Notes under the pieces: model-generated
The model's input: only the letters and a program-made list of their open reading frames with translations
Databases searched by the model: none
Told to the model about the DNA's origin: nothing
Program-made: the position numbers and the translations under genes
Assembly (NCBI GenBank): GCA_030407315.1
Contig: JALQPE010002509.1
Span: 1 to 64,000 of the forward strand
DNA: 64,000 nucleotides
Origin: Asparagopsis taxiformis
Taxonomy: Eukaryota > Rhodophyta > Florideophyceae > Bonnemaisoniales > Bonnemaisoniaceae
Direction: 5' to 3'
Shown here: positions 6,312 through 50,054 of the stretch, piece by piece
Layout of the letters: each line of letters starts with the position of its first letter
How positions within the stretch are numbered: position 1 is the stretch's first letter

Positions 6312-6739
6312 ACCTGGTAAGCGTGATGCACCTGTGACAACCTATGTGACTGCAGTCACAGCCGCCATGGCGCGGCCGTGCAGTACAACACTCAAAGACA
6401 GGGAATCACAATCTTTTTAAAATTTTTGTCTACCACGTATCCATCACAACTTATTACCTACACCGGTTACGGGTTTCAAGACCTTTCCATTGCTGCTGTG
6501 TACCCGTATACTCTGTTCCGTTCGATATCCAAACCAAGTGTTCCTCACGAAAGAGTGCAAACGTCACGAGATACGTCGTCAAATTTGACGTGACTGTCTC
6601 GCCGAGCGGTCGCCATCCTGTACGAATTTCTACTCATTCCATTATGACGAAAAGCGCAGGCGCAACAGCAATCCGATCGTTGACGACGCAACCGTGCCAA
6701 ATCTGCGCGAATCCCGCTAGCCCTGGGGGATTCTAGGAC

Positions 6740-24914: not shown

Positions 24915-25209
24915 TTTTGCTGGAAACCGTTGAATGGTTCACGCCCAGGATAGAGTACTTGAGTAGAACTGGAAACGTTGCTGAGGAGAAGGGAAGGATA
25001 AGTAGAAGAGACCAGGGGGAAACTTGTCTCGAGCATGGACGGAAGATGTAACGGATAAGGACATTGGTACGGCCGTTACAAAAGCTGCGGGCAGTAACGG
25101 TCCTGGGCATACCCAAAAGCAATGGAGCCAGCAATGCAATCAGCCAGAGAAGTTATTTTGGTTACATCTCTATGTGTTTGCAGAACGTAGGCTAAGGTAT
25201 ATTCGGGGC

Positions 25210-25333
25210 AAGGAAATTGGTAATCTTTTTTGCGCTGAAATTGCTGCAGTAAAGAGTGATCTACCCAAGTGCACATAGGTAGATCAGTTTTTACTGCAGT
25301 AATTTCATAGCTAGAAAAATTACCGAAATTTAA
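25210..25333. repeat. Degenerate copy of the ACTGCAGT foldback element
   Basis: An inverted repeat with arms GGAAATTGGTAATC and ATTACCGAAATTTA and an inner CTGCAGTAAAG...TTTTTACTGCAGTAAT. It is a diverged relative of the elements at 25721 and 29883. Confidence 0.65.
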
Positions 25334-25720
25334 TCTCAGCACTATGTAAGCAGCACTAGCTGACTATGTAGATGACCACGGCTCAGTTTGTTCTTCCGGG
25401 CTGTTTTGTTGCTAGGAGCGTTAACGCTATAATTATAGAAGCGTTAAACTTCATACCACATAGAATGTACATTGAGCAGCTTTTCCTGCGTGTGGTACAT
25501 GCATGATGTACGAAATGCGAGAATGGATGTACAATGTACAAGACAGTTGTGGTACCTGCATTTCTCTCTACATTGTCATTGTGCTGAAAAACAAGCGGAG
25601 ACCGTCCGCATGTGGAACAAGGCAAACAACTAAGAACGGCTGGTATCCAAACCTCAGCCTTCGACATGCCATGTAGGGTTGTGTGGTGCCCGTGGCTATG
25701 CCAGAACACATACAAGGCAG

Positions 25721-25847
25721 CGTAAAATTTGGTAATTTTTTGGGCTCTAAAATTACTGCAGTAAAAACTGATCTAGCAAAGTGCACTCGGGTAGATCAGT
25801 TTTTACTGCAGTAATTTTTGAGCCCAAAAAATTACCAAATTTTACGC
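25721..25847. repeat. 127-bp near-perfect foldback (MITE-like) element
   Basis: The left arm GTAAAATTTGGTAATTTTTT is matched by AAAAAATTACCAAATTTTAC at the right end. Inner arms contain TTACTGCAGTAAAAACTGAT and its complement, with a short GTGCAC centre. It lies between the coiled-coil and MTase genes of set A. Confidence 0.85.
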
Positions 25848-26032: not shown

Positions 26033-29000
26033 CTAGACAGTGAAGTAATCATGACCGTATTCGATAAACAGCTCGGATCCAGCTGAGATAGCCTCGTTAG
26101 CAGTAACACATACAACTTGGTAGCTAGACACAGAGCTCTCACTGATGAGTTCTTGTACAGGGGAGGAGAAACTAACATTAGCAGTTCGCGACGGGCGATC
26201 GGTTCCCTCTGCTGGATCCACGAACGTTGGGTCGTTGATTTTCGAAGCAGCGCAATACTCGAATGGAACAATGAAGATGGGGCGGCTAGACGTAGACGGA
26301 AGCAAGCAGGTGATATTTGGGTCCTTGATTTGAACTGCGTACTTCTGGAAGCGCTCAATCGAGAACGAAGTCGGACCCGTACCAAACGTCTTCAGTTTTG
26401 CTTGGTAGAGATCCTTGTAAACCACTGCCCCAAAATAGTACCCGACGATATCTCCTGGATCAATATCTACTCTTGCGAAGAGTCCATCACCAGCTGCAGG
26501 TATAGTTGAAGTTGCAACGTATACATTGTGTGCCATTGCATCAATTGATAGCAGGGTTTTACTATCCATGGTGGACAACAAGCCCAGCAGTGATTGTGGC
26601 CATTTGTGAATAGGAAGGTCTATCAAGTCATTGTGCTGGTCTGGGATGCACCAAATGGCGGTCAGAAAGCTGATGAGGTGGGGTGGAAGTTGTGTCGAAC
26701 TTGGTAAACTGGAGGGGTTCTTCGAGTGGGAATCGTCATCGGAAGTTCCGAGTTGAGAAGTGGCCAGCTGCTGCAGGGCGGGCGTGGACTGTTGAGCAAA
26801 GTTCCCAATGGAGACCTGCTGCAGAAATGCAAGATTGACTCTAGGAAGGGATAGTTCAAAGCAGTCCGTGAACTTCTCACACCCCACAAACCTCCTGTAC
26901 TGACCGTGGTGCATAGTAAGGCATGCAACTGCAGTAGAGAAAGTGCCAGCAAACATGTCCACGACCAAGTCTCCCTGGTTTGAGAAACGTCCAATGAGCT
27001 CTTGCATGAGAGCTACGGTCTTCTGCTCGGGGCGCAACGTAACCTTTTTCTTGTCCTTGTCCAAATATTTCACTGTCTCCGATGCTGTGATGCGCGGGAT
27101 GTTGTCGATGACATTTGTCCAAGCCTTGAACCTAGAAGGGATGTATCCTGCATTTCGGTAGTTCACCATCCCCCAGCCTTCTTTACCCTTACCCAGCTTC
27201 GTAGCATGTACAACCAGCTCGACCATATTTAACAAACTGGTTGTAATCCTATATGGAGGCGAAGTAAAATGGGTGGGGCTCCGAGTACAGACGATAGGCT
27301 GCGAATCAACCGCGAACATAGGACTACCCGTAGAGTATTTCACTTTGCGAAGCTCGTATACCCAATTGTAGAACAGAGCAGCAGATGTGAATATGAGAAC
27401 ATGACCACCCTTGCGCGTCACCTTGGAAATTTCAGCTACCGTGTCTTCGATTTCTTCCTGACGGAGGACATCGTAACCAGAGTTTCCTCTGCCAGACATA
27501 CGCCTAGTATTGTACGGCGGGTCAGTGAGTACCAACTGAGCACCTTCCCGGATTTGCGGCTTTCGAGGATTGTCAACAGCGTCATAGTTCTTCAAAAGGT
27601 CTCTGAAGCTGCAGTTGAAAGTATGCAGGACAGATCCTTTCATGTTGTCCATTTCTGGAGGAATCAACACTTCATCTTCTGCACGCATGGATTTTATATC
27701 AGCTCTGGCCGCTTCGGCGGTACCGCTGTTACCGCTATTCCTGCTCGAGCTTCCTGCACCAGAAGGGCTTTCATCTAGTCGTCTGCGTTTAGCATTCGGG
27801 CTCGTTCCGTTCCCGCCGGGCGGAGAATCCCGTACTGGAGAAGCTGTTCTCTCAGTGTCTCCGAACAGCTCCTCATTAGGGTCGGGCGTTGATTGTGGCT
27901 CTTCTGTGAGGCTGAATGCCGTGAGTTGCCTTTCAACCATACCCAGAGCCCGAATAGTCGTAAACCTCCCAGCATCTGGGGAACCAGTCGACGCCTGGAA
28001 GCCCTGTAGGAAAGGTATTGCTCGCGGTGAAGAAACGGTTTGGTCGAACAATTCTTTGTGCCGACAGATCGTCATTATGTGCTCCCAGAAGGACGTTGCG
28101 CAGAGGCGCATCTGAGCATCTTGCAGCAGCGTACGATGGACAGCCGCACTCGAGATGCTTGCCGAGTGCTGCACTCTTCGAACAGCTCCTCTGCCGTGCA
28201 ACAAAGTCTTCAGCTCTCGAAGCGGTGCGAAGCCCCTATTTTCCGAGTCCAGGACGTGGTACGTGAATACTCTCTGGTCGTACAGAAGGTACGGTTGCAA
28301 GAGCTCCTCGGTATTGGTAGCCCCTAGCGACTTTGCCAATACATCCCATGACTTCAGAATCACATGAATACCATATCCAAGACGCTGGGCAGTCCACGGA
28401 CTATCCTTCTTGAGAAGCGGCGTGGGTCTATTCGAAGACCTCGTTCTTGTACGTGAGCGTGGCCGGGATTCTGCCTGCAACTTCCAGTCTCGGTCCATTT
28501 GTATCAATGCCATGAGAAATACAACCCTCTCGAAAGTTGTGGTAAGTCTCGGAGTTGTCCAGCTATCTTGATGCGAAGCGCGCTCCTGGGTCTGTGAAAC
28601 GAAGAATTGGCATGCTAGTGATTGTCTTGAGAAGGCATCTCGACCAATCGCGGACTGGGAGAAGTTATGCTCGGTGTAGAACTCTTTCTGAACTGGAAGT
28701 GGTGGTCCAGGACTCTGAGAGTTTTTGAGTGGATCCTCTGCTGATTGCTCATCACGCTCATGGACAAACACGGGAATAAAGAAGGATACGGATAAATCCA
28801 GCAACCCACAGCTCGTGAGGAATAGATCCCATACCCGTGTGTCTATATCTACACTACCATCTTCACCAGCAGAAATGGTGAAGTTTCGGACTGCTTGCAC
28901 AATGTTAAAGGTGTGACGATGGTAGGCATACGAGAACCATTTATCCAGAACGATTGAAGCATTCGCTGGCAGGTCAAACTTGTACATACTGCTCACAGCC

Positions 29001-29506
29001 CTTCGAAACGCTGTGAGCGAACGTTCTGCAAGGGGCACATGATCCTCTTTCTTCTCAGCTTCATGCCAACAGTCTCGCATGTGAGCGACTATTGCTACAC
29101 TTTCGTAGAACGGAATAATCCTTTCCCTCTCCAGGAGATGAAAGAGAATAGAGGCAAGCGTATGTGGTTTGGTAGTAATAGATTCGTAGCTCATGCGAAG
29201 TAAATATCTCGATGTGTTCCGTCGGGGGCGCGACCACACCTCCTCGCACACGTCCATGCCTCCCACCAAGGTTACGTCACCATTGTCCGCAATGCTACCG
29301 TACAGATAGAGACGTTCGAAATCCAGATGCACTACGGATGTGACATCGGAGGCTGGGGTGCTAGCCCCTGCGATAGCAGGAATTGAAACAACGCGAGCGG
29401 GATCAACCCATAGAATGGTTCCGTTTCCGTACTTGTCAGATGGATGCATCGGCCCATCTTCGCTGTACGTTTCGACAAGCCCGTGCCGGGGTTGTGGCTG
29501 CGCCAT
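26033..29506 (-). CDS. Beta-class DNA adenine methyltransferase fused to a SET domain, set A
   Basis: A 1157-residue intronless protein from ATG 29506 (MAQPQPRHG; the frame runs on upstream only from a TTG). Residues about 30-230 align with the ParB-like region of the set B copy, but the ParB box is lost: LVGGMDVCEE stands where the other has LDGAHRCM. A linker has the NLS-like NAKRRRLDE near 600. The amino-MTase motif IV VLTDPPYNTRR (D662) comes first; GGHVLIFTSAALFYNW, LRPEQKTVALMQELIGRF and motif I VVDMFAGTFSTAVA with RRFVGCEK (about 840-870) follow. That order (IV before I) is the beta class. Residues about 990-1157 form a SET domain: AAGDGLFARVDIDPGDIVGY, CAASKINDP, and the terminal ISAGSELFIEYGHDYF. 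Expected roles are AdoMet-dependent N6-adenine (or N4-cytosine) DNA methylation plus protein-lysine methylation. A single protein carrying both is unusual. Confidence 0.85.
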   Translation of the reverse strand: MAQPQPRHGLVETYSEDGPMHPSDKYGNGTILWVDPARVVSIPAIAGASTPASDVTSVVHLDFERLYLYGSIADNGDVTLVGGMDVCEEVWSRPRRNTSRYLLRMSYESITTKPHTLASILFHLLERERIIPFYESVAIVAHMRDCWHEAEKKEDHVPLAERSLTAFRRAVSSMYKFDLPANASIVLDKWFSYAYHRHTFNIVQAVRNFTISAGEDGSVDIDTRVWDLFLTSCGLLDLSVSFFIPVFVHERDEQSAEDPLKNSQSPGPPLPVQKEFYTEHNFSQSAIGRDAFSRQSLACQFFVSQTQERASHQDSWTTPRLTTTFERVVFLMALIQMDRDWKLQAESRPRSRTRTRSSNRPTPLLKKDSPWTAQRLGYGIHVILKSWDVLAKSLGATNTEELLQPYLLYDQRVFTYHVLDSENRGFAPLRELKTLLHGRGAVRRVQHSASISSAAVHRTLLQDAQMRLCATSFWEHIMTICRHKELFDQTVSSPRAIPFLQGFQASTGSPDAGRFTTIRALGMVERQLTAFSLTEEPQSTPDPNEELFGDTERTASPVRDSPPGGNGTSPNAKRRRLDESPSGAGSSSRNSGNSGTAEAARADIKSMRAEDEVLIPPEMDNMKGSVLHTFNCSFRDLLKNYDAVDNPRKPQIREGAQLVLTDPPYNTRRMSGRGNSGYDVLRQEEIEDTVAEISKVTRKGGHVLIFTSAALFYNWVYELRKVKYSTGSPMFAVDSQPIVCTRSPTHFTSPPYRITTSLLNMVELVVHATKLGKGKEGWGMVNYRNAGYIPSRFKAWTNVIDNIPRITASETVKYLDKDKKKVTLRPEQKTVALMQELIGRFSNQGDLVVDMFAGTFSTAVACLTMHHGQYRRFVGCEKFTDCFELSLPRVNLAFLQQVSIGNFAQQSTPALQQLATSQLGTSDDDSHSKNPSSLPSSTQLPPHLISFLTAIWCIPDQHNDLIDLPIHKWPQSLLGLLSTMDSKTLLSIDAMAHNVYVATSTIPAAGDGLFARVDIDPGDIVGYYFGAVVYKDLYQAKLKTFGTGPTSFSIERFQKYAVQIKDPNITCLLPSTSSRPIFIVPFEYCAASKINDPTFVDPAEGTDRPSRTANVSFSSPVQELISESSVSSYQVVCVTANEAISAGSELFIEYGHDYFTV

Positions 29507-29882: not shown

Positions 29883-30004
29883 CTAAAATTTGGTAATTTT
29901 TTGGGCACAAAAATTACTGCAGTAAAAACTGATCTAGCCAAGTGCACTTTGCTAGATCAGTTTTTACTGCAGTAATTTTTGAGCCCAAAAATTACCAAAT
30001 TTTA
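29883..30004. repeat. Second near-perfect copy of the ACTGCAGT foldback element
   Basis: It has the same arms (CTAAAATTTGGTAATTTTTT and its complement) and the same inner ACTGCAGTAAAAACTGATCT and complement as 25721-25847, with a few substitutions in the loop. It lies between the MTase-SET and 2OG genes. Confidence 0.85.
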
Positions 30005-30421
30005 TGCCCCACTCGTAGTGACCGTATGGCTCGTACTCCGTCCTACTTTGTACCAGCGACCTTATGCCATGGAACACTCACCACCACGAGTAAGCACCAC
30101 GTGGGCAGCACCTTCTATAGTTCGGTGCAATTATGTTTATCGACTATTGGTGCACAACTGTCTGGATGCATCACGATGACTAGATGTTCAAGATTGTATG
30201 AGGAGAGAAGTAGACGGACATAGATGCACGTCATGGTAATACCGGTTCGGTTTTGAACAGAGCTGCAATGCGCCGTCAATGTTCGTCAACGACCATCCAG
30301 CGAAGAAGCGTAGCATTTGGAATGTTTAGAAACATCAGTAAAGCATGGAATGTATGAACTTGACGTAGCCTGGGGCAGGAGCGGTTGTCCAAATCTGGAA
30401 CAGGTGGGCGCCGGACGGGTC

Positions 30422-30725: not shown

Positions 30726-32374
30726 CTACTCAACTGTGATGTAATCTTCACTACTATCCGGTACCTCATCGTCCGACTCAAAGTCGTGTGCGAACTCGTA
30801 AGGTTTCGGCAGACGATTGGGGTCGTCACTCTGCACCGGTGCGTAGACGAGATCATTGACTAGCTCGGAAGAATCACGTACAGCCATGCTATGGACTCGA
30901 ATGTGATGACCGTATTGTACTCCAGTCTTAGAAATTTTGTCCTTCACGAAGTCGTAATCCTGCCATCCCGCACCAGCGTGCTCTACGTCACCACGAGTCA
31001 CGAGAACAGAGAAGGGTGGAATCCAAACCAATTTTGGATGGAGATGGGGCCAGACGGCCAGGAAGGCATCACGAGGGGCGTTGAGGAAGGCATGACTCCG
31101 CGGTCGTACCAGAATTGGGGACCCAACTGCACCAGTAGCTATGAAAGAATAGTCTGGGTCTGGTGCAGGGGTCCCACAATAGCGGTTCGGTTCCTCGCGT
31201 GGCGGTCCTGGGTACGTGAAGTCGAGATGCGGGATCTGACGAGTACAGTTGGAACCCGTCAGGAGCATCCGAAGTCCTGTCCTCCCAAAGCGCAGCTTGG
31301 AGCCTTTCTTGAATCCGTTCAAAGATGAAACGGAATCCTCCAAGTGCAACATTTCCGCTATAATTGCGAGGATGACATCCACGGAAACCTTGTCATGAGC
31401 CAACGACATGGATTCCTCCCCGTCGAGGTCTTCAATGACAGCCGAGCGGGGGGTCATGTACCGCTGGCGAGACGCGCCACCCCGGGCATCCTGGGCAGCT
31501 GAACCGGAGTTCAGAATCGTGCCCCGCGCCCCTTCCACATTGTCATCGAACTTTTGGGCAAACCCAGAGAGCAGTTCGTGGATTGCAGACCGTACATCGG
31601 AAGCTCCTAGTATGTCTTCGAGGACGATGTATCCATCGAAATCAATACTAGCCCTTGCCCGCTCCCAATAAACAATCCTCTCCTCGGATGTACCACCAGC
31701 CGCGGAGTTGATATCCTCCCTGATCTCCTCCACCTCCCCACTCGTCATGATGAACCCAGAGCGGTGTTCAGGATGGAGCAGACCCGAAATTGAACGCACG
31801 AACGTAGCAGCTTGGGCAAGCGTGGTCTGCTCCGTGAGAAAGGAAGGTGGCGGTGGCTGCTCGTCCTCATACCTGTGTACCCGAAACCCCTTGGAAGTCA
31901 CCTTCGTCTTTGTAGGGTTTCGCCGTCTTCTATCTCACCTTCACGCTCCTTTTCGCCAGATGAGGGTGGCTGTGCAGGAAGCGGAAGGGAGACAGGGGGA
32001 GAAGACGGGCTACCGAGAGCGATGAGTTGCTCTGCGATAGCGGCACTTCTGGTCTTGGACCGAGTCATCCGAGTCGGAGGAGGAGTGGTCGGCTCTCTCC
32101 TCCTCTTTTCTCCCCGCCGCGGTGTTCCAGAGGCAGTTTTCTTGGCTGGTTCCCGGGATATGGGCGCCTTCCCTCCCATCGTACTCCGCGGAGCCTCACC
32201 GGTCTGCTTATCCTTTTCTTCAGCAGACTCGGTAGAGGACGCGTCCTTTTCGAAAGGATTGTACGCATCACCTTCCCACGCTTCTTGTAACGTGACCCCT
32301 GCAGGAGGGGTCCAAGAAGGGGGGTCATCCGGTTGACGGCCATCGTAGCACTCACGGGAGCAGACGAACACCAT
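30726..32374 (-). CDS. 2OG-Fe(II) dioxygenase-like protein without ParB domain, set A (one frameshift)
   Basis: Two abutting minus-strand frames form one ~549-codon gene. The N-terminal frame (ATG 32374 to stop 31898) is basic and Pro/Ser-rich (TPRRGEKRRREP, TRMTRSKTRSAA). The second frame starts one base shifted, at a GTG and not an ATG, and carries the enzyme domain. Numbering the 391-residue frame, the HxD box is PHLDF (H225, D227), the distal His lies in SVLVTRGDVEHAGAGW (H308), and a candidate 2OG-binding Arg is in GHHIRVH (R335). These are the hallmarks of the 2OG-Fe(II) oxygenase double-stranded beta-helix. Paralogues are the C-terminus of 52808-56449 and the decayed copy at 63-1513. 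The substrate is unknown; nucleic-acid base or histone demethylation/hydroxylation would suit its neighbours. The frameshift may be decay, recoding or an assembly error. Confidence 0.75.
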
Positions 32375-32397
32375 CACTACGGTGTTGGGAATGAAAA

Positions 32398-32750
32398 AAG
32401 ACAGTAAATTTACTGTCTGAGACAGTAAAAATTACTGTCTGGCCAAGACAGTGCGCGGAGACAGTAAAATTTACTGTCTGGAAATTTCAGAATACTGCTG
32501 CAGCAGTAAACTGGCACGAAATCTGGACAGTACCAAAAACAGTAAAATTTACTGTCCAGAACAGTAAATTTTACTGTCCGGAAGTGTTGCCGCCAGACAG
32601 TATGTGCAGACAGTACATTTTACTGTCTGAGACAATACATTGTACTGTATTACTGCACTGTCTGGGGAAATCTGTAGACAGTAGTGTAGATAGCAAATTG
32701 TATTGTCTGCGGGTAGTACCGTGCATTGTTTGACAACACTGTCTGGTGGA
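32398..32750. repeat. Cluster of ACAGTAAA-TTTACTGT palindromes upstream of the 2OG gene
   Basis: About ten copies or half-copies of a palindrome of the form GACAGTAAAATTTACTGTC lie within ~350 bp, immediately 5' of the minus-strand 2OG gene. Copies include those near 32400, 32420, 32460, 32540, 32560, 32610 and 32640, with decay towards 32750. Such an array could be a binding-site cluster or a run of nested foldback insertions. Confidence 0.85.
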
Positions 32751-33279
32751 GTGGACTTAGAGGAAATATGGAGCATAGTGTTGGTGTGAAGGTAAATATT
32801 GGAATGGTGTGTGGTATACGACTATATTAATTGTGATGGTGCTTTACAGATAGTTGGGTGCGGGGAAGCTAGATGCTGAATAGGAAGTTGTAGAAAGGAA
32901 GATTGGGAGAACAGAACATATCTGGTTTGTCTCACCGTAACGAGAGAATGTACAGAGTAGCTATATATGTTGAGTTTAGCATTTCAAATTATACCTATCT
33001 ATCTTTGCATTGAAAGTGTCTAGTAGGAGACGTCAGTCTGGTAGCGAGGTGTGGTATGCACAGGACGTGGGTGGTGGCAAAGGAAAGAATACGCACCATC
33101 CACCACTAAATTATGAAAAATAACCGTTACGGAGCACTGAGAAGCATTATTATTATGTAGAGTAGACCAGGATGGATGCATCCACTGAAATGATATTTGC
33201 TACAACACTGCTGTACTAAGCGTGACATCCTTCCTTCAAAGCAATTCTCCTTTTAGCAAACTCCAATTGCAAGGTCAAG
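32751..33279. promoter_or_regulatory. Presumed promoter region of the 33280 gene
   Basis: AT-rich non-coding sequence between the divergently oriented 2OG (minus) and coiled-coil (plus) genes, beyond the palindrome cluster. No specific element was recognised. Confidence 0.3.
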
Positions 33280-34806
33280 ATGAATCCCGAAACCTCCGTA
33301 AGCATCGCCGCATTTTCCGAAATAACGCGTGAGGGCTTTTCGAACATCACTGCAGAGTTGAAAGCCCTGAGTGATAAAATGGATGCCGTCGAGAAGAGCA
33401 CCATTCAATTACGCGAGACTCTCGGAAATGTCGCCAAGACTGTCTCCATGCTAAACACCGATATGCAGGAGGTCAAGAGCATCGTCGATGGGCTTCTGAG
33501 CCAGGGACAAGGACATCCGAAGAAGATCGCCTCCGAGAAGGACAGGGAACGTCTCCGCATTGCGCAGGATGCGGAGAAATCGTTCACGTTCGAAATGGTG
33601 TGTGCTGTGCTGTGTGCTGTTGTTCCAACGTACACGAAGGCAATGGTGGATAAGAGGGATAGGCATTTCAACGGATGCCAGTTAATCAATACGCTGATGT
33701 TCGCCAGGCAGAGCAATGAGCGAAAGGATGTGTTCAATAGGACGCTTGCCGGCCGGAACCACATTGAATTGCGCTGCCAAGTTGTGACCTCTTTAATCAA
33801 GAATACGTGTCAAAACAATTCTTTCAGAGAGGGAGGAGACCGTTCCAGCTCCAATGGAACGTCGGAAGGTATCGAACGGTGGAGGGCGCGGGGGTATGTG
33901 ACTACCGGGACCATTGAGGAGACAATTCGCGGAACGGACTCTGCTCGCATGGATGGAATGCATGGGACGTCCGAGGCAAGTGATGGGGCCGCTCGAAAGC
34001 AGAAGCGAAGAAAGGTTGGTGACAATGGGCCGTTGCACAGAAAGGAGGTAGGCATCACTGTGACGAAATCGGCACTCACAGCAGTGACCGGGTTTATGAA
34101 CAAGTCCAGAGATTATGTGCGAAACCGGTTCATCCGAGATCTTGGATTCGTTCTATACAGTGGGTTTCAAGGTTCAGTCCGAATGGAGCATCATTTGCAC
34201 GACGGTGGGCTGGACATTGAGTCAGTTCCAAGTCTGTACTCGGCGCAGAGGAAAATGAATGCAGCGGAGCGTGCAGCAATGGATGACAAGAATATGAAGA
34301 TTCTTCGCGACTTCATTGCAGTGCGAAAAGAAATGCTATTCAAAGTCGAGTACGAAGTTCAAATAATTGGAGAACCGGACAAGAGGTTTTTGACTAGGAG
34401 GATCAATTTAGTAGAGGTTGCACTGAACTTTGCAGTCGCCTACACGCAATGTTCTGATAAGAACATGTTCCTGCGACGTTCAGAATACTCCTTGCAATTC
34501 ATCTACATACTTGCATACGGGTTCCGAACGATTTTGAAATTTCAAAGTGGAACAGAGGTGGAAGGAGCGCAAATCCGGGAAATCAATGAAGCAGTGAAAC
34601 TGCTTCTTCCCGGGGAGCGGGTGAGTAGTCGGTTCATGAATGAGGAGGTTTTGACTATATCGCGTGATAGATATGAAGAACTGAATGTAGACGATGGGGG
34701 GGAATCAGTGCTGGAGGAGAGCTTCAGGTCTATGGAAGAGGACGGAGGAGATGCAGAATATGTGAAGGTATTCGTCGATGATGAAATCGAGAATGAAGGG
34801 GAGTAG
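33280..34806 (+). CDS. Coiled-coil, NLS-bearing protein of unknown function, set B
   Basis: A 508-residue frame starts at ATG 33280. A long N-terminal coiled coil (about 15-75: ITREGFSNITAELKALSDKM, then VEKSTIQLRETLGNVAKTVS) is followed by a helical region, an NLS-like ARKQKRRKVGD near 245 and a C-terminal domain with MLFKVEYEVQIIGEPDKRFL and ALNFAVAYTQCSDKNMFLRR. It ends in a highly acidic tail. The C-terminal domain aligns with that of the set A protein at 23241-24914. It converges with the broken Tudor-like gene at 35082-36441, just as the set A pair converges (21420/23241). No catalytic motif was seen. A scaffold or DNA-element-binding role is only a guess. Confidence 0.65.
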   Translation: MNPETSVSIAAFSEITREGFSNITAELKALSDKMDAVEKSTIQLRETLGNVAKTVSMLNTDMQEVKSIVDGLLSQGQGHPKKIASEKDRERLRIAQDAEKSFTFEMVCAVLCAVVPTYTKAMVDKRDRHFNGCQLINTLMFARQSNERKDVFNRTLAGRNHIELRCQVVTSLIKNTCQNNSFREGGDRSSSNGTSEGIERWRARGYVTTGTIEETIRGTDSARMDGMHGTSEASDGAARKQKRRKVGDNGPLHRKEVGITVTKSALTAVTGFMNKSRDYVRNRFIRDLGFVLYSGFQGSVRMEHHLHDGGLDIESVPSLYSAQRKMNAAERAAMDDKNMKILRDFIAVRKEMLFKVEYEVQIIGEPDKRFLTRRINLVEVALNFAVAYTQCSDKNMFLRRSEYSLQFIYILAYGFRTILKFQSGTEVEGAQIREINEAVKLLLPGERVSSRFMNEEVLTISRDRYEELNVDDGGESVLEESFRSMEEDGGDAEYVKVFVDDEIENEGE

Positions 34807-35081
34807 TATCGGATGAAACCAGTTTCGGTGTAGTAGACGAAGAATGAAGAAATAAAATTTCTGTTGAGTTGAATTTTGTAATAGATGGAAGTAGATAGAT
34901 GCGAGACATCAGGAAACCAGTCAGACGATAGTGTCAAGTCGAAGGAAAAGCGCAGAGACAGGTAGTGGAATAGTCGAAGTAAGAAGGGGCGAGGGTATCC
35001 GTCTTTACTAGAAATTGATGGCCACAGGAGCTCTAGAATGGAAAACCCAGGAACAGGATAACTACGGATAGGTGTGCTTTA

Positions 35082-36441
35082 TCATTTTTGCTCCGGACTG
35101 CAGGTGGCAGGTGGAGGAGAGGGTGGGTGGGTAGTGTCTGAATCCGCATTGAAGCCAAGACGAGAGATAGCCTCATAGCCAATGTCTTCAAGCTCCTGGC
35201 ATGTAGTAGTACCACTGAAAATACAGCAAGGTAAGCGTAGATGTAGTGTACCAAACGTCTCTGCGGTTGATAGAGGCTGGAAAGTGCTGTAACAAGCTCG
35301 GCGCTGAATACGTCTCCACAGTAACGAAAACGTTGCTCCATGGGTAACAGTAGCCTTATCACGTAGGTGGAAAGAGTCCACGATGCTAGACTGTGATAGT
35401 TGGCTAAGACATAGGGGATGTAAAAATGTATTGTTGACATGGTCAAACTCGTAGGAGTCTCTGCAAAGAACTGTCATACGTTGGTCTGGGCTGGACAGGA
35501 CGTAAGCAGATGAGCCGACGAGAAATGCGGAAGAAGGAGCATCATGAGAGCAATCAACGTCGACTAGATTTCCTAAAATTCGGACAATCGATGAGCTGCC
35601 TCCATCGCGTTCCGCCCTGCTCTTCACCAATATTTTCTGGAACCCGTGTTGCGAGGTACCTATGGAGTCACATAGTGCCTGAAAGGTGGGGAAAATGATG
35701 GAAAGATCCGACTCATTTCCAGAGGGAAAGGTGATGTCCTCAAAGGACGGCTGGAAGAGAACGTCACGATTCTCTTTCGCCTTGCATTGAATGGCAATAG
35801 TGCGGAATTGAGCAAGGGAGCAGTCAGCCTGTACTCTGATTTCTTCTTGCGATGTTTGTCGCATTCCCCTGGAGTGCTCGGATTTTGTCATCCGGAGGGA
35901 GAGGGGCTTGTCCGTGTACACACCAAGCTTCTGAAACAGAATGCTACATACAGTCAGAGCAGAGGAGGTCATGGAGCTGTTGGAATCGAATGGAGGGGAA
36001 GAGGATGTTTGGCAGCTGACTCCAGCTTTTCCAATCTTGCCAGCATTTCTGCTATGGTCTTCTTCATTTGATCCGCAGTGCAATCTTGAAGGATGCCGCG
36101 GTGGCGGTGGCGAGTGTGGTCAATGCCGTAGTCCGGGTCTCTCTCTGCTGGGATGCAGGTGAGTCCATACTGCGAAGCTCACCACTTCGCCACGGGAGAA
36201 CCCTTCCGGAATCCTTGTCGACGAGCTCGTTACGATCTGAAATCTTGACTTGAGAAAGGGTAGAGTCGAAACCATATTCAGCTTTGTATTCGAGCAATGC
36301 ATGGAGGAATGGGTCTGTTTCAGTCTTGACCTGAGTAATTTCCTTGACGATTGCAGACCACCACACAATTTTTCGTTTCCTCCCAAACGGCCGAAGTTCC
36401 CATTGAACTTCTATAACGTCGTTTGGAGCGAGAGGAAGCAT
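35082..36441 (-). pseudogene. Tudor/Agenet-like protein, set B (frameshifted)
   Basis: The first piece (ATG 36441 to stop 36064, 125 codons) holds the barrel: DVIEVQWELRPFGRKRKIVW, WSAIVKEI, and VKISDRNELVDKDSGRVLPW RS. Compare EIDVWFQVGDDAIWWKATVV and TPWRTS of the set A gene. A coil MKTIAEMLARLEKLESAAK sits in a third frame at about 36030-36075. The rest continues in yet another frame (35082-36083), whose C-terminal pattern SSAFLVGSSAYVLSSPDQRM...FGTLHLRLPCCIFSG parallels the set A protein. At least two frame changes are needed, so the gene is broken as read. It is head-to-head with the ParB-MTase-SET gene at 36955. Confidence 0.7.
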
Positions 36442-36954
36442 GTTGGGATAGCTATGGGATAGAATTGTTGTATTAGTGAAAGCCTAACCGTTACCTTCTG
36501 CTAAAGAGTAGTATATACTAGGAGGATTGGAAAGGTCGAGAAGAGATGTTTAGGTGGTGTAGAAATAGAATGGACAATTGACAAAATTGACACGTCAGTG
36601 TGGATGATGTCTGCCATGAACTGATTGCAGCATAAAATTTGATGTGAATAATCGTTCTAGAAGTGAATGTCGGATGCATACGATTGGACTACAAAGATAC
36701 GCTTAGAGATGTTACGGGGCCCAATAAATTGCATGGAAAAATATTTTGAGTATTACTTTAGTATTACATTGATTATTGAGCTAACAGTCGATGTAGTTAT
36801 CTTGTAAAGGTTCGGACAGGGGTGGAAAGGAAACAGCCACCGAAGTGCTACCACTCGCTGACACTTTGTTTTAAACAACCAACTTCTGCTTTGCGCCACC
36901 CTGGTCAAGCAGCAACCAACTATCCCTTTCTTAAAAACTCTACCTTTGTTCGCC
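36442..36954. promoter_or_regulatory. Shared divergent promoter interval, set B
   Basis: A 513-bp non-coding gap lies between the minus-strand Tudor-like gene and the plus-strand ParB-MTase-SET gene, so both promoters must lie here. No TATA box or repeated operator-like motif stands out. Confidence 0.4.
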
Positions 36955-38952
36955 ATGGAAGGAACGTTCCACAATCACGGTGAAAAGCACGACGGATGGG
37001 TGTTCATCGACCCCAATCAAGTCAGCAAATTCGTATCGATTCGCGATGTTGATGCAAGTCATGTGGAAGCGCTCATGGAGAGCATTCGCAACAGCGGTTA
37101 TGACACAGCTCATCCCGTGACTGGCAGGTTTCGAGAAGGCGTTCTGGAGATATTGGATGGAGCGCACCGCTGCATGGCAATTGTACGTGGAATGGAGAAG
37201 GGCGTCTTTCCTCCTGGCGTTACGATTCCTATGCGAGAAGAGTCTATCGTGGCGGACACCAACAGCAGTACTGCTGTTGTGCTGGACCGTGTGAGAGCGA
37301 CGACATCCAACGACATTGCAGGCCTGCAAAGGCGCATGATGTTTGTTGAGTATCTGATGATCGCCGTTGATCTCAGAGACGAGTACTGGGTCCAAAACGG
37401 AAAGGAAAAGTACGCTCATATTTCGTCTGTGAGGATGGCCGATGTGTTGGGCTGGATCAAATCCTGCGATCCAAGCGGCCAAATTGCTTCAAGCCTGAGT
37501 GGTAAACCGCAGTACATCTCATGCATGTCTATCCTGGCTGTGCTTCGGCCGTATCACCGAGCAGAAGATTCGAGTTCGATTGATTTGCGTCTGTGGCAAA
37601 TGTTTTGTCATGCATGGGGACTCAATGCAGAGATGGGTGATTCTCCGAGGATGGTTGAGTTTCCGAAACAGGTGGGGGTGACTAGTTCTCGTGCCGTCGA
37701 AATGTTTGGCAAGACACCCCGCGGAGAATTGTCCTCTCCACTGAACCGCGAACTGCTTTCGAGCAGGTACTTTCTAGACGGCGCTACATCCGACATGCAA
37801 GATTCTTTGCAGGCTAGCCAGAAGCGGTTCAGGAGGCTGATGGTTATGATGTGCCAGTGTATCTTGGCTATTCGCAGTAAGGAGATGGGCAGTGTGCCAT
37901 CTAGGCGGGCCAGAGCCACATCCGGGGCCATTGGTGGTGGTGGAATGGTTGGAATTGCAACATCCAGTGCGCAAGCCAACCAGCTTGGATTTGTTGTCGA
38001 CCGTGTGTTAGCAGCGTGGGATACTGGGGCAAGAGTGTTGGGGTATGAGGATGTTGAATCGATGTGCTGGCCGTTCATGGTATTCGATCCTGCGAGCCTT
38101 TGCTTCAGGTCACTCCCGAATCGGTCTGATGGCTGCGCGGTCGAGGAGCATCGGAAAAACCTGACCATTGTCCCGAAAACTGTAGACAGTGAAAACGGGT
38201 TCTGTGCCGACCTTCCAGTGGCTGTGGATGCAAGGCTGCGATCATTGACAAGCGCCTTCCTGCTGTCGATACGCCAATGTGTCACTGAGGTGAATGTGTT
38301 CGCCGAGCGTGGTCAGCTGATGCAGAGACTTCGAGACTTGCTTTTCGACACTCCTGACAAGTTCGGCTTGAACTCGTTCATGCGAGCCAAGTTGAACACG
38401 TCTCATGCCCTGGATGGTCAGAGGAGGCTGAAGGCTTGGTTATTGCGAACCCGAGAGCAACGAAAGCTTCCTCTGACCATGGATGAGTTGCACAGTCTTG
38501 AGGATACGCCCGAGCCTGGCATCCTTGAAGGTGCACCTGCGCAGATGGAAATATCCGCAGCAGTGCCAAACAATGGCAGCGAGGATATAGAAGAGGATAG
38601 TCTGGAGCCACAGAGGAAGAAGGCTAGGCTGGAGCGCGGTGGTGGAGAGGACGATAATGCGGCGGTTGCTAGCGAAACAGCAACAAGAGAAGGTGCGGCC
38701 GAGGATGACGCTATGGAGGTTGACACTGTATCGCCTACAGAAGCACCGCTCGTTGACGTCGGAAAGGAATCCAAGCCGGAATATGTCACCAAGCTGGAAG
38801 CTGTGATGGGGCGTTACATTCACACTGTGAATTGTGACGCCACTGATGTAGCCAAAGAGGTGGAGGACAAAATTAGTTTCCTGGAAGATGGCGTGTTGGA
38901 GGACAGTGTTCAGCTTGTGCTCACTGATCCTCCATTCAACACGAGGCGGGAA
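36955..38952 (+). pseudogene. ParB-like/beta-class adenine MTase-SET gene, set B: 5' part, interrupted
   Basis: The frame starts at ATG 36955 (the upstream in-frame codon is TTG). Residues about 15-110 are ParB-like: WVFIDPNQVSKFVSI, HVEALMESIRNSGYD and the active-site box ILDGAHRCMAI (D68-R72), the DGxHR signature of ParB/Srx-type domains. A helical linker region matches the set A protein, then an NLS-like PQRKKARLERG near 560. The frame reaches MTase motif IV as VLTDPPFNTRR (D658). There it is cut by the 11.5-kb insertion at 38953. The rest resumes at 50489. If the insertion and one AA copy are disregarded the frame runs through, giving a total of about 1155 residues against 1157 for the set A protein. 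The interruption therefore looks secondary to an intact gene. Confidence 0.85.
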
Positions 38953-38986
38953 CGTCTGTGTTCTCGGAAATGGACGCGGACGTCCA
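38953..38986 (+). repeat. Left terminal inverted repeat
   Basis: It starts CGTCTGTGTTCTCGGAAATG and continues GACGCGGACGTCCA. It differs from the inverted right end at two positions. Confidence 0.9.
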
Positions 38987-39150
38987 CAACCTCTAGTACA
39001 CCTAGTATTACTAGGCGGACGTCCATGTTCTCCAGTATTTTTGGATGTCCGCCTAGATCCGGACGTCCATGCGGTCTAGTACGTCTAGTATTACTAGGAC
39101 GACATTCATTGTTTCTAGTACCACGGATGTCCCCCTCGGGATGGACTTCC
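38987..39150. repeat. Left subterminal CTAGTA/GGACGTCC repeats
   Basis: Imperfect alternation of CTAGTA..TACTAG words with GGACGTCC or GGATGTCC words every 20-40 bp. It resembles, but is less regular than, the array at the right end. Confidence 0.7.
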
Positions 39151-39289
39151 GCCATGTCTATGTCAACCTAGGACGGGCGCCGGTTCAGAAATTCAAAAAT
39201 TTCGACCCCAGAAATTTCTGCCGCCTTGCTCGACATGGATGTCCGCATCCATCACGGCGACCACTCTATTTTTCCTTGTCGGTCGACTC

Positions 39290-40210
39290 CAATTTTGTCT
39301 TTAATTTTTTCATCCTCTCGCTCACACCCCCTTCCATTTGGTGCTCACCTCCCCCGTACTGTACCTCAAACACCCCCAATACCACTCTAGAACGCATTTT
39401 CAGCTACCTATCCCCGCTTCCACGGTGCACACCTCCATTCCATACCTACTTTTCTGCTCTACCGTACAGATTTCTTATAACCAGTCCTCATACTACCTCA
39501 GAATAGGGAAAAACATCCCCTATCCCCTCGACCATGCTCTCCCCCATCACCTTTGCAACGTATTGTTCTTCAATACCCTCTCTCCTCTACCTTCAACCCC
39601 TCTCCTTCGCCCTCTCCACAAACTTCCCCTGCAGCTTACTCTTCGACCTGCTCCACCCCTCCCTCCCTCACCTGCTCCATGCCCCCACGCCATCCGCATC
39701 TTCGATACCGTATACACCACCACCACCACCACCGGCCCACGCTCCCGCTCCCCCGCCGTCTCCCCAGAAACCTCCCCGCTCTGAAACACATATCAACCCC
39801 CCACTTCGCACCCATCCTCCCACTCCCCTCCCTCCCCAAATACAATAACCCTCTTCTTCCCCATCACATCCCCACTCACCACAGCCAGAACAGACGCCAC
39901 CCCCCTTCCCACCTCTTTCTCCTCACTTTCCTAAAACCCCCTCCTCTCGGGGCCTTCAACCGCACCCTCCTACGGTCCCACCTAAACACCTCCTCCGCCC
40001 TCACTACCCCAACACCCCGCAGCGTCTCCCCAATCCCCATAATATGCTTGTCGGCACTCCTCTCCGAATCACACTCCAATCTAAACCCGCACTCCGTACA
40101 TTTCCACTTCCCCCTGTACCATCCCATCCCAAGATTCCATCCACCCCCCACAGAACACATCCTCATACCACAGAAGAATTTTCTTCCTCTCATACCTCAT
40201 CCTTAAAACC
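39290..40210. other. Strongly strand-asymmetric C/T-rich stretch
   Basis: The plus strand is almost devoid of G over long runs (CCTCCCC, CACCACCACC and TCTCCCC words). The long plus-strand frame here (39553-40206) is Pro/Ser/His-rich low complexity and is not considered a gene. On the minus strand a frame at 39876-40193 contains KWKCTECGFRLECDSERSAD, a possible CxxC motif, but it has no defended start. Confidence 0.5.
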
Positions 40211-40544
40211 TCCATCTCTTCCATGTAAATTTCGATGTAAATATTTTCTCCACTATGCAAACTCATACATGTATGAGCGTATGCCTTTCCGCTTCGTCAA
40301 CCCTGAATATTTGTATTCATGTATTCATAAAATGGAGCCACCCACATCCCTATCCCGTTCTGCAAGCTTTACAAACCACCAGACGCATACTCCACAACTA
40401 TACAACAAACACTACTCGCTATTTCAGACGACGCGGTACACAAGTAGCGTAGTCTCAACCTTCCGTGCAGCCTTCCCTGATGCGTACAAGTGCGAAACAC
40501 GTCTAGACGTATATCACAAGTGAGCGCGGGAATTTTCGGCACAG

Positions 40545-42040
40545 GAGATGCTGGGCCACCAAATTGATTTTTCGGAAATTTTAGAATTTCTGGGCTGGCC
40601 AGCAATGCAATCGAGCTGGACATCCACCGGACGTCCATTTCAGGTTGATCGTGAGAGAGTAGGGCGGGACCATGATGAAACAAGGACCAAGACCTGTCCC
40701 TGACGTGTTGAGCCTGAAATCGACCCTTCGTAAGACGCGATTTTGGCTTACAGTTGGTGCTTACAGAAGCCAGTGATGACCCCGGTCGGGGCGGCAGCCG
40801 GTTCCTGGGGCCGTTGTGGCCAAATTAGACACCTTGATTTGAATTGAAATTTGGGCTATTCTCAAAAACATGCACATGTGAACATGTTTTTGAGATGGGG
40901 GTCTGCCGTACGGCACAATCGACCCGCCCAAATCGATGATTTTTCACAATTTTTTTCTGCCCGAAATTTTAGAATTTCTGGGCTCGCCAGCAATGCAATT
41001 GAGCCGGACATCCACCGGACGTCCATTTCAGGTTGGTCGTGTGCTGCCCACATCCATGCATTGCAGCAACTAAGCAGGCGGGCTCACTACTCATACAAAG
41101 TGCACGGAATATGAGTAACGTGATGTGTGAGTGTTGTTTGTCGTGAGGATGTAAGGTGGGACCATGATGAAACAGGGAAAAAGATGTCTCCCTAGCATAA
41201 CTTGGGCTTGAAGCCTGGAATCGACCCTTCGTAAGACGCGATTTTGGCTTACAGTTAGTGCTTACCGAAGCCAGTGACGGCCCCGGTCGGGGCGGCAGCC
41301 GGTTCCTGGGGCCGTTGTGGCCAAATTAGACACCTTGATTTGAATTGAAATTTGGGCTATTCTCAAAAACATGCACATGTGAACATGTTTTTGAGATGGG
41401 GGTCTGCCGTACGGCACAATCGACCCGCCCAAATCGATGATTTTTCACAATTTTTTTCTGCCCGAAATTTTAGAATTTCTGGGCTCGCCAGCAATGCAAT
41501 TGAGCCGGACATCCACCAGACGTCCATTCTGGGTTGTTCGTATGCTGCTCACATCTACGCATTACAGCAACCACGCAGGCGGGCCCACTGCTCATACGAA
41601 GTGCACGTAGCATGTGCAGCATGATGGATGAGCAGTGTTTGTCGTGAGAAAGTGGGGTGGGAGCATGTCGAAACAAGGACCAAAACTTCGCCCTGGCGTA
41701 TTGAGCCTGAGCCTGGAATCGACCCTTCGTGAGATGTGGCTTTGCTTACAGTTGGTGCTTACAGAAGCCAGTGACGGCCCCGGCCGGGGCAGCAGCCGGT
41801 TCCTGGGGCCGTTGTGGCCAAATTAGACACCTTGATTTGAATTGAAATTTGGGCTATTCTCAAAAACATGCACATGTGAACATGTTTTTGAGATGGGGGT
41901 CTGCCGTACGGCACTTTCGACCGCCCAAATCGATATAATTTTGCAATTTTTTTCTGACTGAAATTTTAGAATTTCTGGGCTCGCCAGCAATGCAATTGAG
42001 CTGGACATTCACCGGACGTCCATTTCAGGTTGGTCGAGTA
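40545..42040 (+). repeat. Tandem ACATG-hairpin units in the left arm
   Basis: A partial unit at about 40545-40835 is followed by full ~490-bp units starting near 40836 and 41329 and a further unit from 41820. Each carries the AAAAACATG...CATGTTTTT hairpin, GCCGTACGGC and the GGACATCCACC block. Adjacent units are nearly identical, which implies recent duplication. Confidence 0.88.
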
Positions 42041-42376
42041 TTGCACATGGATACAGTTTTGCAGCTATTTCTCAGCCCAACATTTTAGAATTTCAGGGCT
42101 GACCAGCAATGTAACCGAGCCGGACTTCTACTGGACGTCCATTTCAAGTTAGGCTAGTGCTGCACATTTGCTCGCATCGCAGCAACTAAGCAAGTGTTGA
42201 CAGCACCGAGATGCCATGCAGACAAGGGAGAATCGGCTGCAAACGGCTTCCCTGGTCGGCGGCTGGATGTCTGGATGTGAATGGCTGCAAGCATGGAAAT
42301 CTTGCTACCGCACAGCGCATACACACTGCAGCAGCACATCACTGACGCATGCGAAAGTTGGGTGCTGCAGTGCGTG

Positions 42377-42552
42377 GTTGTTTGTGTGTTTGTGTGTTTG
42401 TGTGTTTGTGTGTTTGTGTGTTTGTGTGTTTGTGTGTTTGTGTGTTTGTGTGTTTGTGTGTTTGTGTGTTTGTGTGTTTGTGTGTTTGTGTGTTTGTGTG
42501 TTTGTGTCTTTGTGTCTTTGTGTCTTTGTGTCTTTGTGTCTTTGTGTGTGTA
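42377..42552 (+). repeat. (TGTGTTTG)n minisatellite, about 22 copies
   Basis: A perfect 8-bp tandem array TGTGTTTG covers most of this stretch and changes to TGTCTTTG in the last five copies. The other arm of the inverted repeat has only about four copies (46484-46514). Open frames across it (VCVFVCLC repeats) are artefacts. Confidence 0.95.
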
Positions 42553-43438
42553 TGACGAACCTTGTGGTATCCCTAGGCGTGCACTGGTACAAAAAGTTTG
42601 GACTGCCCCATCGGTCGTACTTTGGCGCATTTACATGCATCGGAGAACGACCAAGGAGGTAGAGCAGCAATCACTGTTGGCTGAGCGTCCAAACTGGAGG
42701 GCTTGGGGCAATGGTTCTATAGCAGTCATTTATAGGACGCCCACCGTTGATGACTGAGATCCACGGTGGGTTTAGTATTCATGGTGTTGTCCTGCATTGG
42801 CGGACGTCGAAGACGAGTACTTCCAGTGAGCGTCCAAGGTGAACAGCTCAGCAGAGGATTATGATGTGGATGTGAAGGCATGGATGAGGCCAGCAGGAAC
42901 GTTTCTGCAAGATGGGCGTGAGTGGGTAAGTGAGCGGGGAGGGGCCGCTCGGGGCGCTTGGTAGCTTCTGGGGCCGTTGTGGCCAAATTAGAATCAAGCC
43001 TATGTCCGGCAGACGTCCTGAATTGCTTTATTTTTTGGGCTATTCTCAAAAACATGCACATGTGAACATGTTTTTGAGATGGGGGTGTGCCGTACGGCAC
43101 TTTCGACCGCCCAAATCGATGTATTTTTGCATTTTTTTTCTGACTGAAATTTTAGAATTTCTGGGCTCGCCAGCAATGCAATTGCGCTGGTCATTCACCG
43201 GACGTCTATATGCGCTCAAGCGATTGCTGTCTGCTTCAAATACCTGATACATTATTGCCCCACACGACATAAAGTCCCCCAACATGCGACGCCCATCAAA
43301 CATAAACATTTTCATGCTCTTACTACATTCTAGTCGCACACATACATCCATCTTCAAACAAAAAATGTCATTTAAACACCACCAGTCCCGCTTCATCGTA
43401 CGCCAATACCGCCCAGTCGCCCAGCAGACAAGCTAGCC

Positions 43439-43792
43439 GTGCAGAAAATAAGCACTGCCATCTACGACGGAAACGACTGGATCTCATCATCGCTCTCAGC
43501 ATTTCCAACAAGCCCAACATGTTTCCCCTACGTCACCCTGCAAAACGATACCATTGTATACTTCTGCATTCTCCGTCAATTGCATTCATTCAATCTGCGC
43601 AATGAATTCTTCAATCTCGAAACCGGCCGGGTTTTCTGCCCATCCTGCAATAAGGGCATTGGAGAAAGTTCTCTAGCAATGGCCACTAAAGCCTTGATGC
43701 AACTACACGGTGCTGATTGCTTCTATCGCTTCCTCAAATCTGTCGACATTTACAACATACCATCCATCCGACACATTTCCAAACTAAACTAG
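43439..43792 (+). other. Possible small zinc-ribbon-like frame in the centre of the insertion
   Basis: An open frame of 117 codons begins at a GTG with no early ATG. It contains GRVFCPSCNKGIGESSLAMA followed by TKALMQLHG. The CxxC...S...A.K..M spacing resembles KCTECGFRLECDSERSADKH on the minus strand at about 40080. This could be an exon of an unrecognised gene or chance. No function is proposed. Confidence 0.2.
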
Positions 43793-45828
43793 ACTGTTCA
43801 TTGACAAACTCGTGTGTAGCCCCATTTAGACCACTCACCACTGGTATCTGCTGAGTCACCGCGCACTGCCCTGGTGCTCCCTCCTGAATTCGCTTGGGCT
43901 GTCTCAATACATTCCGTACTATGCCTATGAAGCAGTCCCGTTATGGATCAGCGTTCTGCGTGTTCAGCACATCATCCCCACGTTACCAGAGCTGCAATTT
44001 CTCAGCGGTACGGGTATCATCAATCCTTAGCACAGATGTGATACAGCAGCCGATGCAGGTCAATTTCTAGACTCGTAATTTTGCACTCAAGAAGGGAGAT
44101 CGGTATGGAAATTGTCCAGGCATAACAAACCGCCTGTCCTGCTCTCCTGCAGAGCAAGCTCCATCGATCCAGTCGATCAGGAACCTGACGACATGTAGTC
44201 GGCGTTCGTTCCGGACGCGGAAAGGGCAAATTTTTGTGTGGCGTTTGCAGATTCAGTCGCAACGGGAAGCGATGAAACTTTCCGCATGGCGTTTGACTGC
44301 GGTTTATCTGAGACAGACATCGAGCGATCGGTGTTTCTGTCCAGATGAAGCTGGAGATCAATGCCGTATTTGAGCTGATAATTGGAGCAAAGATTTGAAA
44401 CAAATTTTCTGTGCAAATTTACGACACGACACGGCGGAGGGTGGATAACTCAACGTTAGATGTTATTGGTTGAGCCAACATTACAAGACCGTACCGACGA
44501 CACGCGCAATCATTGATTTTTCGCTCATTGCTTAGAGAGCAAAACTGTCCAATGGTCGTATCAAGTTAGACCAGCACATATTTCCGCAACATCTTGGTGG
44601 AACGAAGTCGGTGCTCACGAAAGCCTGAGAGCTGCCTTGAGTCGAGGATTTTGTACGCCGCCTTATCTGTGGTAGTTTCATACTGCGTTGTTTCACCGTT
44701 GGACTTGTGCCACGCACACTTGGATCTCTCTCCATACGTACGTGTAGATAAGATGTGAATTGAGCTACAATAGCATACCAAACTGGAAACCAGTATCTAC
44801 ATGCTTTGTGAGAATATAATGCCTCTTCCTCGAGAAAAGGCCTCCTTCGGAATACTAGATTTCATTCAACCATATCCATCCATCTCCCATCGCTTCAGCA
44901 TGAAATCATCACCATTCCATCCATCACAACGTTCGTCTCTATCCAAACACTACTCTCCACACATCTCCCCGATCTTTCAGTCCGACCGTACCCGGCGGCG
45001 GCCGAGAGAAACGTACTGGCCATTGTTAAAAGTATCTACGACGGCAATGAGCGCATATATTAAATCATTCTCTATGTGCACACAGACCCTGATTGCCTCT
45101 CGTTTGTGGCAGAAATGAAACAAACACAAAGACTGCAACTCGTCCATGCGAGAAGCAAAAGCTACAGATTTTTAGCAAGTATCGATAGCTACAAAGAACC
45201 ACTGCAACGTTTATTCTAGACTTGTATACATTTTCATTAGCACTTACATTACCATACACGAATAGTATTGCATTAAAGATTTTTATGAGAATGACAGGGG
45301 TCAGCGGCCGGGTTCCCTCCAGCTCAGCTTGGCTCAGCTCCGGATGCAGATGTGGTGAAGGGAAGAGAGAAAAGTCAGATATTCTACCATGATCTGATTT
45401 GATTTGCAATCTGAGAACTTCTTGACTCCCAAAAGGTGTAAACAGTATCCCTGCATATTGGCATCGACCAAAAGAACTGCAGCACTAACTCAATTTTCAT
45501 TGCAGAGATCAGCACAACGTATTCGTCTTGAGTGTCACAAGTTGCAATTAGATGGCGCTGACTCGAAGCTAGGAGAGTTGGTAGTTGTGCCGAGTCGGCG
45601 TCTTCGGTTTGATCGCTCGTGTAAATATCCAAGCAAAATGGCAGGCAAGGAGATACAAAGCCACGCAACAATCAAGCTTACCACATTCCCCAGCCAGAAT
45701 CACCATAGAAATCCTTGCAGTCTGCATCACACAGATCATCTTACGCAGTGCGTGCTGCCCAGGTCGTTATTCGGCCCTATCCAGAAACACTTTCAGGCCT
45801 AGTGCAACCAGTAGATCTGAAATGGAAA
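43793..45828. other. Unique centre of the insertion, nothing recognised
   Basis: This is the spacer between the arms of the inverted repeat. Short frames on both strands lack motifs or credible starts. Confidence 0.4.
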
Positions 45829-49935: not shown

Positions 49936-50054
49936 GACGTATTGTATACGAGCAGTTTCGTAAATGAGAGAATAAAATACGGTCCGATATGGGCCCTTAA
50001 TTTACCATCCGCTGTAATTTCTTCCCTCCGGGTTTTTGCTGATATATTGTATAC

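Follow-up and report, generated by a model that had tools for sequence, protein, structure and literature searches.

A predicted DNA methyltransferase–SET fusion gene carried by giant transposons of the red alga Asparagopsis taxiformis

Genes joining a ParB-like domain to a DNA methyltransferase (MTase) are already known from algal transposons, and SET genes are known from other transposons. In Ectocarpus, the 21.5 kb DNA transposon Sola1-1_Ec32 harbors an accessory gene that combines a ParB-like domain with an N4C/N6A MTase; the protein it encodes has been suggested to bind the element and to mark it, and similar ParB-MTase proteins are cited for transposons of green and red algae (PMC12477816). 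The same source refers to Petroll et al. 2025 for red algal giant EnSpm elements with multiple accessory genes. SET genes are carried by HarbingerS and MuDR transposons of Phytophthora, and TET/JBP genes, which are thought to evade silencing, by fungal EnSpm/Plavaka transposons (PMC12730594). In bdelloid rotifers, N4CMT is an amino-MTase of bacterial derivation that writes N4-methylcytosine (4mC) and has a chromodomain as reader (PMC8885841). Here we describe a gene from a 64,000-nucleotide stretch of the Asparagopsis taxiformis genome (positions 1 to 64,000 of contig JALQPE010002509.1, assembly GCA_030407315.1; “the window” hereafter), the product of which, P0001, unites a DNA MTase and a SET domain in a single polypeptide and is encoded within giant transposons.

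The following comparisons draw on excerpts of the cited sources. Like Sola1-1_Ec32, the element carrying P0001 is a giant DNA transposon with an accessory MTase gene and a putative ParB-like domain. It is unlike Sola1-1_Ec32 in that the MTase of P0001 is fused to SET, while the excerpt names no SET for Sola1, in that a second, putatively ParB-like gene that ends in HxD..H adjoins P0001, and in that Sola1 is another superfamily. With the elements of Petroll et al. 2025, as reported in PMC12477816, it has in common the red algal host, an apparent EnSpm type and several accessory genes. The HarbingerS and MuDR elements are likewise DNA transposons with a SET methyltransferase gene; they belong to other superfamilies, however, and the excerpt mentions no DNA methyltransferase fusion for them. 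The fungal EnSpm/Plavaka transposons with TET/JBP, like the apparently EnSpm/Plavaka-type elements described here, carry a DNA-modification gene, but theirs is a 5-methylcytosine (5mC) oxidase, whereas the partner gene described below is oxygenase-like by pattern only. As in rotifer N4CMT, a bacterial amino-MTase is linked to a eukaryotic chromatin domain; in contrast to N4CMT, which is a captured rotifer gene, P0001 combines the DPPY motif with SET and is transposon-borne. A term search of a paper on red algal sex chromosomes (PMC12502185) returned no methyltransferase. No MTase-SET fusion is named in the titles, abstract openings and excerpts examined from the open-licence literature, and Petroll et al. 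2025 may already describe it.

The P0001 gene (26033..29506, minus strand) belongs to the element designated family 1 and was analyzed by Pfam searches, motif alignment and the ratio of nonsynonymous to synonymous substitution rates (dN/dS). Its frame (26036-29506) is free of stops and translates into 1157 amino acids (aa) from an ATG. According to Pfam, N6_N4_Mtase (PF01555) covers aa 657-878 (E 8.6e-14, 52.4 bits, cut-off 26.7) and SET (PF00856) the C-terminal aa 1006-1151 (E 1.4e-5, 25.9 bits, cut-off 22.4); the roughly 600 N-terminal aa matched no family in profile scans. The MTase motifs follow the beta order, with motif IV (LTDPPYN, 660-666) on the N-terminal side of motif I (DMFAGT, 850-855), and DPP[YF] followed by [FY][AS]GT is found in 7/7 aligned proteins (D662-P-P-Y and F852-A-G-T in P0001). 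When a profile of eight relatives was compared with solved structures, the closest MTases were DpnA (2e-11), MboIIA, CcrM and RsrI, which are N6-adenine enzymes; against the NCBIfam adenine MTase P0001 reached 1.2e-8, under that family's cut-off. Because of its DPPY motif, the beta-class MTase of P0001 is most likely an N6-adenine DNA methyltransferase. In the PHROG database it matches phrog_67 (E 1.5e-25), and the closest solved SET domain is that of SETD7 (1.7e-5, profile comparison). The original prediction, made from the nucleotide letters, of one chain joining a beta-class MTase of bacterial or phage type to a eukaryotic-type SET domain is therefore confirmed in all of these respects by the frame, the profile matches and the motif order. 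The protein database holds four relatives of P0001 (P0009-P0012), three of which were recovered by alignment search.

The gene is not a solitary case. The host assembly searched comprises 141.5 Mb in 3156 contigs. Scoring 40 of 3840 candidates for P0001 gave 41 matches, and among those listed at least 22, the window's own counted, are full-length, stop-free and 99-100% identical, while a 79%-identical subfamily has at least four full-length members, two of them stop-free. These counts are inflated because some matches are allelic: the copies on contigs C2263 and C2494 share the same flanks on both sides and are allelic duplicates of one site. Family-1 elements are nuclear, since one copy lies together with an RNA polymerase III subunit gene on contig C2342. 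PF01555 matched in all 150 of the 2605 candidates that were scored (at least 150), and 20 loci were hand-picked from them and fetched, 17 in SET families and three not. MTase and SET stand in one frame in 13 of these 17 (10/12 loci of family 2 and 3/5 of family 3; the frame of locus L024 ends slightly early), and on the eight contigs picked because they have both family-3 MTase and SET matches, the SET match comes after that of the MTase, in the same orientation, in 8/8 cases. The MTase-SET fusion is present in three element families. A search of viral contigs found no relative, and records near this genome may be excluded from that search.

Selection was assessed on one pair, P0001 versus the 79% subfamily. 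The dN/dS is 0.16 for the whole gene, 0.22 for the N-terminal part and 0.19 for the linker; for the MTase and SET domains it drops to 0.03 and 0.06, and with such values both domains are maintained by purifying selection. Taken with the 150/150 scored MTase matches and the 41 matches of P0001, this puts the fusion beyond chance.

In the window, the family-1 element extends from its left end at 20432 to 32374, where a second element, family 2, cuts it. The C2263 copy measures about 22.06 kb between its ACAGGATAAGCAA inverted ends, which read CAC only when one extra base is counted. Besides the P0001 gene it holds two long frames, one of 1226 codons for the partner and one of 1401 codons for a transposase-like protein. 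In the window, genes for P0005 (21420..23114, plus strand; no family match) and P0006 (23241..24914, minus strand) occupy the stretch from the left end to P0001; P0006 has a relative in the family-2 protein P0007 (E 1e-7). Two large palindromes of the TTACTGCAGTAA type lie downstream of the MTase-SET gene (25172..25847), and a palindrome of this type, about 95% alike, lies between it and the partner gene (29884..30007). Of the partner gene, which joins a ParB-like part to an HxD..H end, the window retains the C-terminal part (30726..32374, minus strand); its frame is broken near 31.9 kb and truncated at 32374.

The family-2 element (32375..64000) begins with CACTACGGTGTTG; its right end is beyond the window and was seen on contigs C436 and C390. 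The 13-bp terminal inverted repeat CACTACGGTGTTG, of the CACTA type (CAC..GTG), bounds both ends of an element of about 19.4 kb on C436. The window's match to the C2263 copy of family 1 stops exactly at 32374, i.e. C2263 presents an exact empty site for family 2, which therefore jumped into the family-1 partner gene. Subterminal ACAGTA/TACTGT repeats reach 22.9 per kb in 32375..33074, compared with a window-wide 0.53 per kb, and 24.3 per kb at the opposite end on C436. The paralogue announced for 36955-51960 does exist, but it is not a single gene at that place: its 5' part (36946..38952, plus strand), with a ParB-like N-terminus, and its 3' part (50488..51960, plus strand), with MTase (E 1.1e-11) and SET (E 8.6e-7; 29.8 bits, PF00856 cut-off 22.4 in Pfam), are split by a foreign insert of 11.5 kb (38953..50487) that has GAA on both sides and inverted ends. 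Both halves share 97.8-99.6% protein identity with uninterrupted frames of 1161-1186 aa in ten fetched loci. Family 2 further encodes the partner P0002 (52808..56575, minus strand; ParB-like N-terminus by alignment only, HxD..H C-terminus) and, in two overlapping frames, the transposase-like P0003 and P0004 (58700..62502, minus strand).

Families 1 and 2 encode mutually related transposase-like proteins (P0003/P0004 versus the 1401-aa frame, E 5e-65) that, by eye, have a PCHxC motif in common with Plavaka; profile comparison with one Plavaka protein gave a weak match (E 0.014, probability 3%). For family 3 we related 140 SET hits (the 150 listed matches minus the ten strongest, which are host-like) to 123 listed matches of the Pfam Plavaka profile. 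At least 39 SET-Plavaka pairs fall within 12 kb, and nine further pairs are more distant. At least 37 of the 140 SET hits have Plavaka at fixed spacing and strand: in 28 pairs the two matches lie on opposite strands about +5.1/5.6 kb apart (a single spacing, measured from low coordinates), and in nine they share a strand at -9.5 to -10.0 kb. Off the pattern are a pair on C41, with the first spacing but on the same strand, and one on C476 (-8.9 kb), which fits neither class. For two contigs of the first class, C178 and C206, the MTase match is itself among those listed, and the MTase-Plavaka distance is 6319 bases on both.

Proteins are read as ParB-like here because of matches to phrog_1033 (family-1 partner 3.6e-4, P0013 7.8e-5, family-2 paralogue 9.5e-4; PHROG) and because of N-terminal similarity of the family-1 partner to the family-2 MTase-SET protein (E 3.5e-4) and to the family-2 partner (E 0.002). 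At the C-terminal ends of the partner proteins H236-x-D238 and H319 are invariant in four rows, effectively two near-identical pairs. That this end is oxygenase-like is our guess from the HxD..H pattern alone, and since the oxygenase reading is a matter of pattern, an “eraser” role is likewise a guess. The protein database holds one relative of the partner gene.

In our assessment it is fairly probable that giant CACTA/Plavaka-like transposons carry P0001 as an accessory gene, and that it serves self-marking by DNA and lysine methylation. P0001 would methylate the DNA of its own element family as well as lysines of nearby chromatin proteins, be it histones or the transposase. It would be aimed by a ParB-like N-terminus, as seen in the family-2 MTase-SET protein and the family-1 partner and not in P0001 itself, and also by the palindromic repeats between genes and near the element ends. 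Together with the ParB/oxygenase-like partner, P0001 would write and reset a self-mark, which would keep the element expressed despite host silencing. Dam methylation times Tn10 transposition after replication, and by analogy the self-mark might alternatively serve such timing. As to the single steps, adenine methylation of element DNA by P0001 is rather probable; protein methylation by the SET domain has about an even chance; a self-mark with a reset step is a tentative proposal. Equally tentative is the fullest version, in which a double writer (N6-methyladenine, 6mA, plus lysine methylation) and a ParB-guided oxygenase eraser would maintain an inheritable two-layer mark independent of host 5mC enzymes. 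The original prediction had the gene coded beside transposons and suggested that its product would be a new kind of chromatin modifier. That placement falls short: the gene is in fact cargo of giant, many-copy transposons, and given that status its product would be an element-encoded modifier at most.

Several observations weigh against this proposal. Regarding the transposon class, Pfam recognizes nothing in the transposase-like genes of either family 1 or family 2, and target-site duplications, in our own reading, fit two of three copies (TC/TC on C436, AC/AC with CAC ends on C2263, AT versus CG on C390). Regarding the aiming and resetting parts, the N-terminus of P0002 matches nothing in PHROG or Pfam, that of P0001 compared with ParB gives no PHROG match and an hhalign probability of 0.3%, the ParB-like proteins scanned by Pfam gave no match, and no oxygenase family was recovered for the partner in Pfam, NCBIfam or profiles of the Protein Data Bank (PDB). 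The AlphaFold models of P0001 and P0002 are too poor to use (mean predicted local distance difference test, pLDDT, of 37.5 and 30.0). Among closely similar copies within families 2 and 3, with few changes per comparison, SET is without clear constraint in two of four comparisons: L009/L024 has four nonsynonymous and no synonymous changes, and L020/L027 a ratio of 0.52. The usual SET core motif is NH(S/xC); in 5/5 SET-bearing aligned proteins ND (IND/LND) takes the place of NH.

The last point bears directly on the main rival explanation, in which the MTase acts on the DNA of the element while the SET domain has lost its enzymatic function and has been retained as a binding or dimerization module, a reader of chromatin or transposase. 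Besides the ND substitution, the SET domain scores lower in Pfam than the MTase and is less constrained (0.06 versus 0.03), and related MTase families do without it (L006 and L023 as scanned, L001 and L004 judging from translations). In SET domains, GxG is the S-adenosylmethionine (AdoMet) site and the tyrosine of the C-terminal YG is catalytic; the same five proteins keep GxG, Y-x-G and the terminal YG (GDG and EYG in P0001), and a dN/dS of 0.06 is low compared with 0.19 in the flanking linker. On balance we see in the module explanation a serious, if lesser, possibility. Considerably less probable is an action in trans, by which P0001 would methylate host regulatory DNA or histones or mask the sites of competing transposons. 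Several MTase families with and without SET do share one genome, and family 2 has inserted itself into family 1; the sequences offer no pointer to host targets, however, and the palindromic repeats within the elements suggest targets of their own. That a host chromatin-modifier gene was passively captured by transposons, as the original prediction would imply, is very improbable: the SET domain does resemble eukaryotic SETD7, but the fetched MTase-SET loci all lie in repeat families, and the ten strongest, host-like SET matches (50-101 bits) are near none of the listed MTase matches. An assembly or contamination artefact, for which the count-inflating allelic duplicates might speak, is ruled out, as had been anticipated in the original prediction, by differing flanks, copies on many contigs, single frames, selection, the nuclear gene sharing a contig with the element and a P0001-identical protein in JGI and ENA records, which may not be independent of this assembly.

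Further observations concern other MTase genes and insertions. Loci L001, L004, L006 and L021-L023 of the host genome represent further MTase families with ParB-like stretches by eye; L006 and L023 have MTase matches (E 9.9e-20 and 1.2e-16) and no SET match in a Pfam scan, and a frame adjoining the L023 MTase gene resembles, by eye, another transposase type. A family-3 gene (L018:6615-8996) encodes a coiled coil with a weak resemblance to NET2A (E 0.00076) and to WTAP (E 0.0096), both below cut-off. In the window, family 3 is represented by a fragment, the N-terminal part, of an MTase-SET gene (6721..7302, plus strand), and the match to family 3 stops at 7399. Direct repeats (7399-8192 and 19297-20087, 95%) enclose retroelement pol frames; the segment 7399-20087 seems to be an element of the long terminal repeat type that cuts the family-3 copy at 7399. 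The foreign insert at 38953-50487 has long inverted arms (for example 40397-41050 versus 46846-47498, 93%; 42525-43209 versus 45828-46512, 99%) and repeats in common with family-3 loci. Family 2 also carries P0007 (33226..34806, plus strand), the relative of P0006, and gene A (35082..36119, minus strand), which has no family match and measures 467 aa in other copies. Gene A and the segment 21420-22100 share a WW-A-V start that by eye is like Tudor/Agenet-type readers, with no Pfam match.

As for the host genome at large, PF00145 (C5 methyltransferase) found no match, with 10/14 controls matched and intron-split genes able to escape; the genome may lack C5 methyltransferases. Searches with MT-A70, PF00172 and PF20151 matched nothing, and their controls were silent too. 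In the nuclear genes Rpb2 and Rpc2 the frames stay open over 1076 and 1243 aa, so introns are few. At C600:21708-22573 there is a decayed additional match to an RNA polymerase subunit of the Rpb2 type, interrupted by several stops. The phycobiliprotein family PF00502 gave 13 matches, 11 on C469 and one each on C931 and C2462. In place of a fungal host, which Plavaka might suggest, these phycobilisome genes indicate that the host is most likely a red alga. C469 has nine such matches plus a split match within an 892-aa frame, and its rpoB is plastid-type by eye. Because a phycobiliprotein match of equal score recurs there 177,170 bases on, C469 suggests a circular plastid of about 177,170 bases, with the contig perhaps running past one circle.

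6mA is a disputed mark in many eukaryotes. Since the copies described here are recent and nearly identical, long-read methylomes could directly test whether a transposon puts 6mA onto its own DNA. If our proposal is true, P0001 would, to our knowledge, couple DNA methylation to protein methylation more tightly than any other case, in one chain and carried by genomic parasites rather than by the host.

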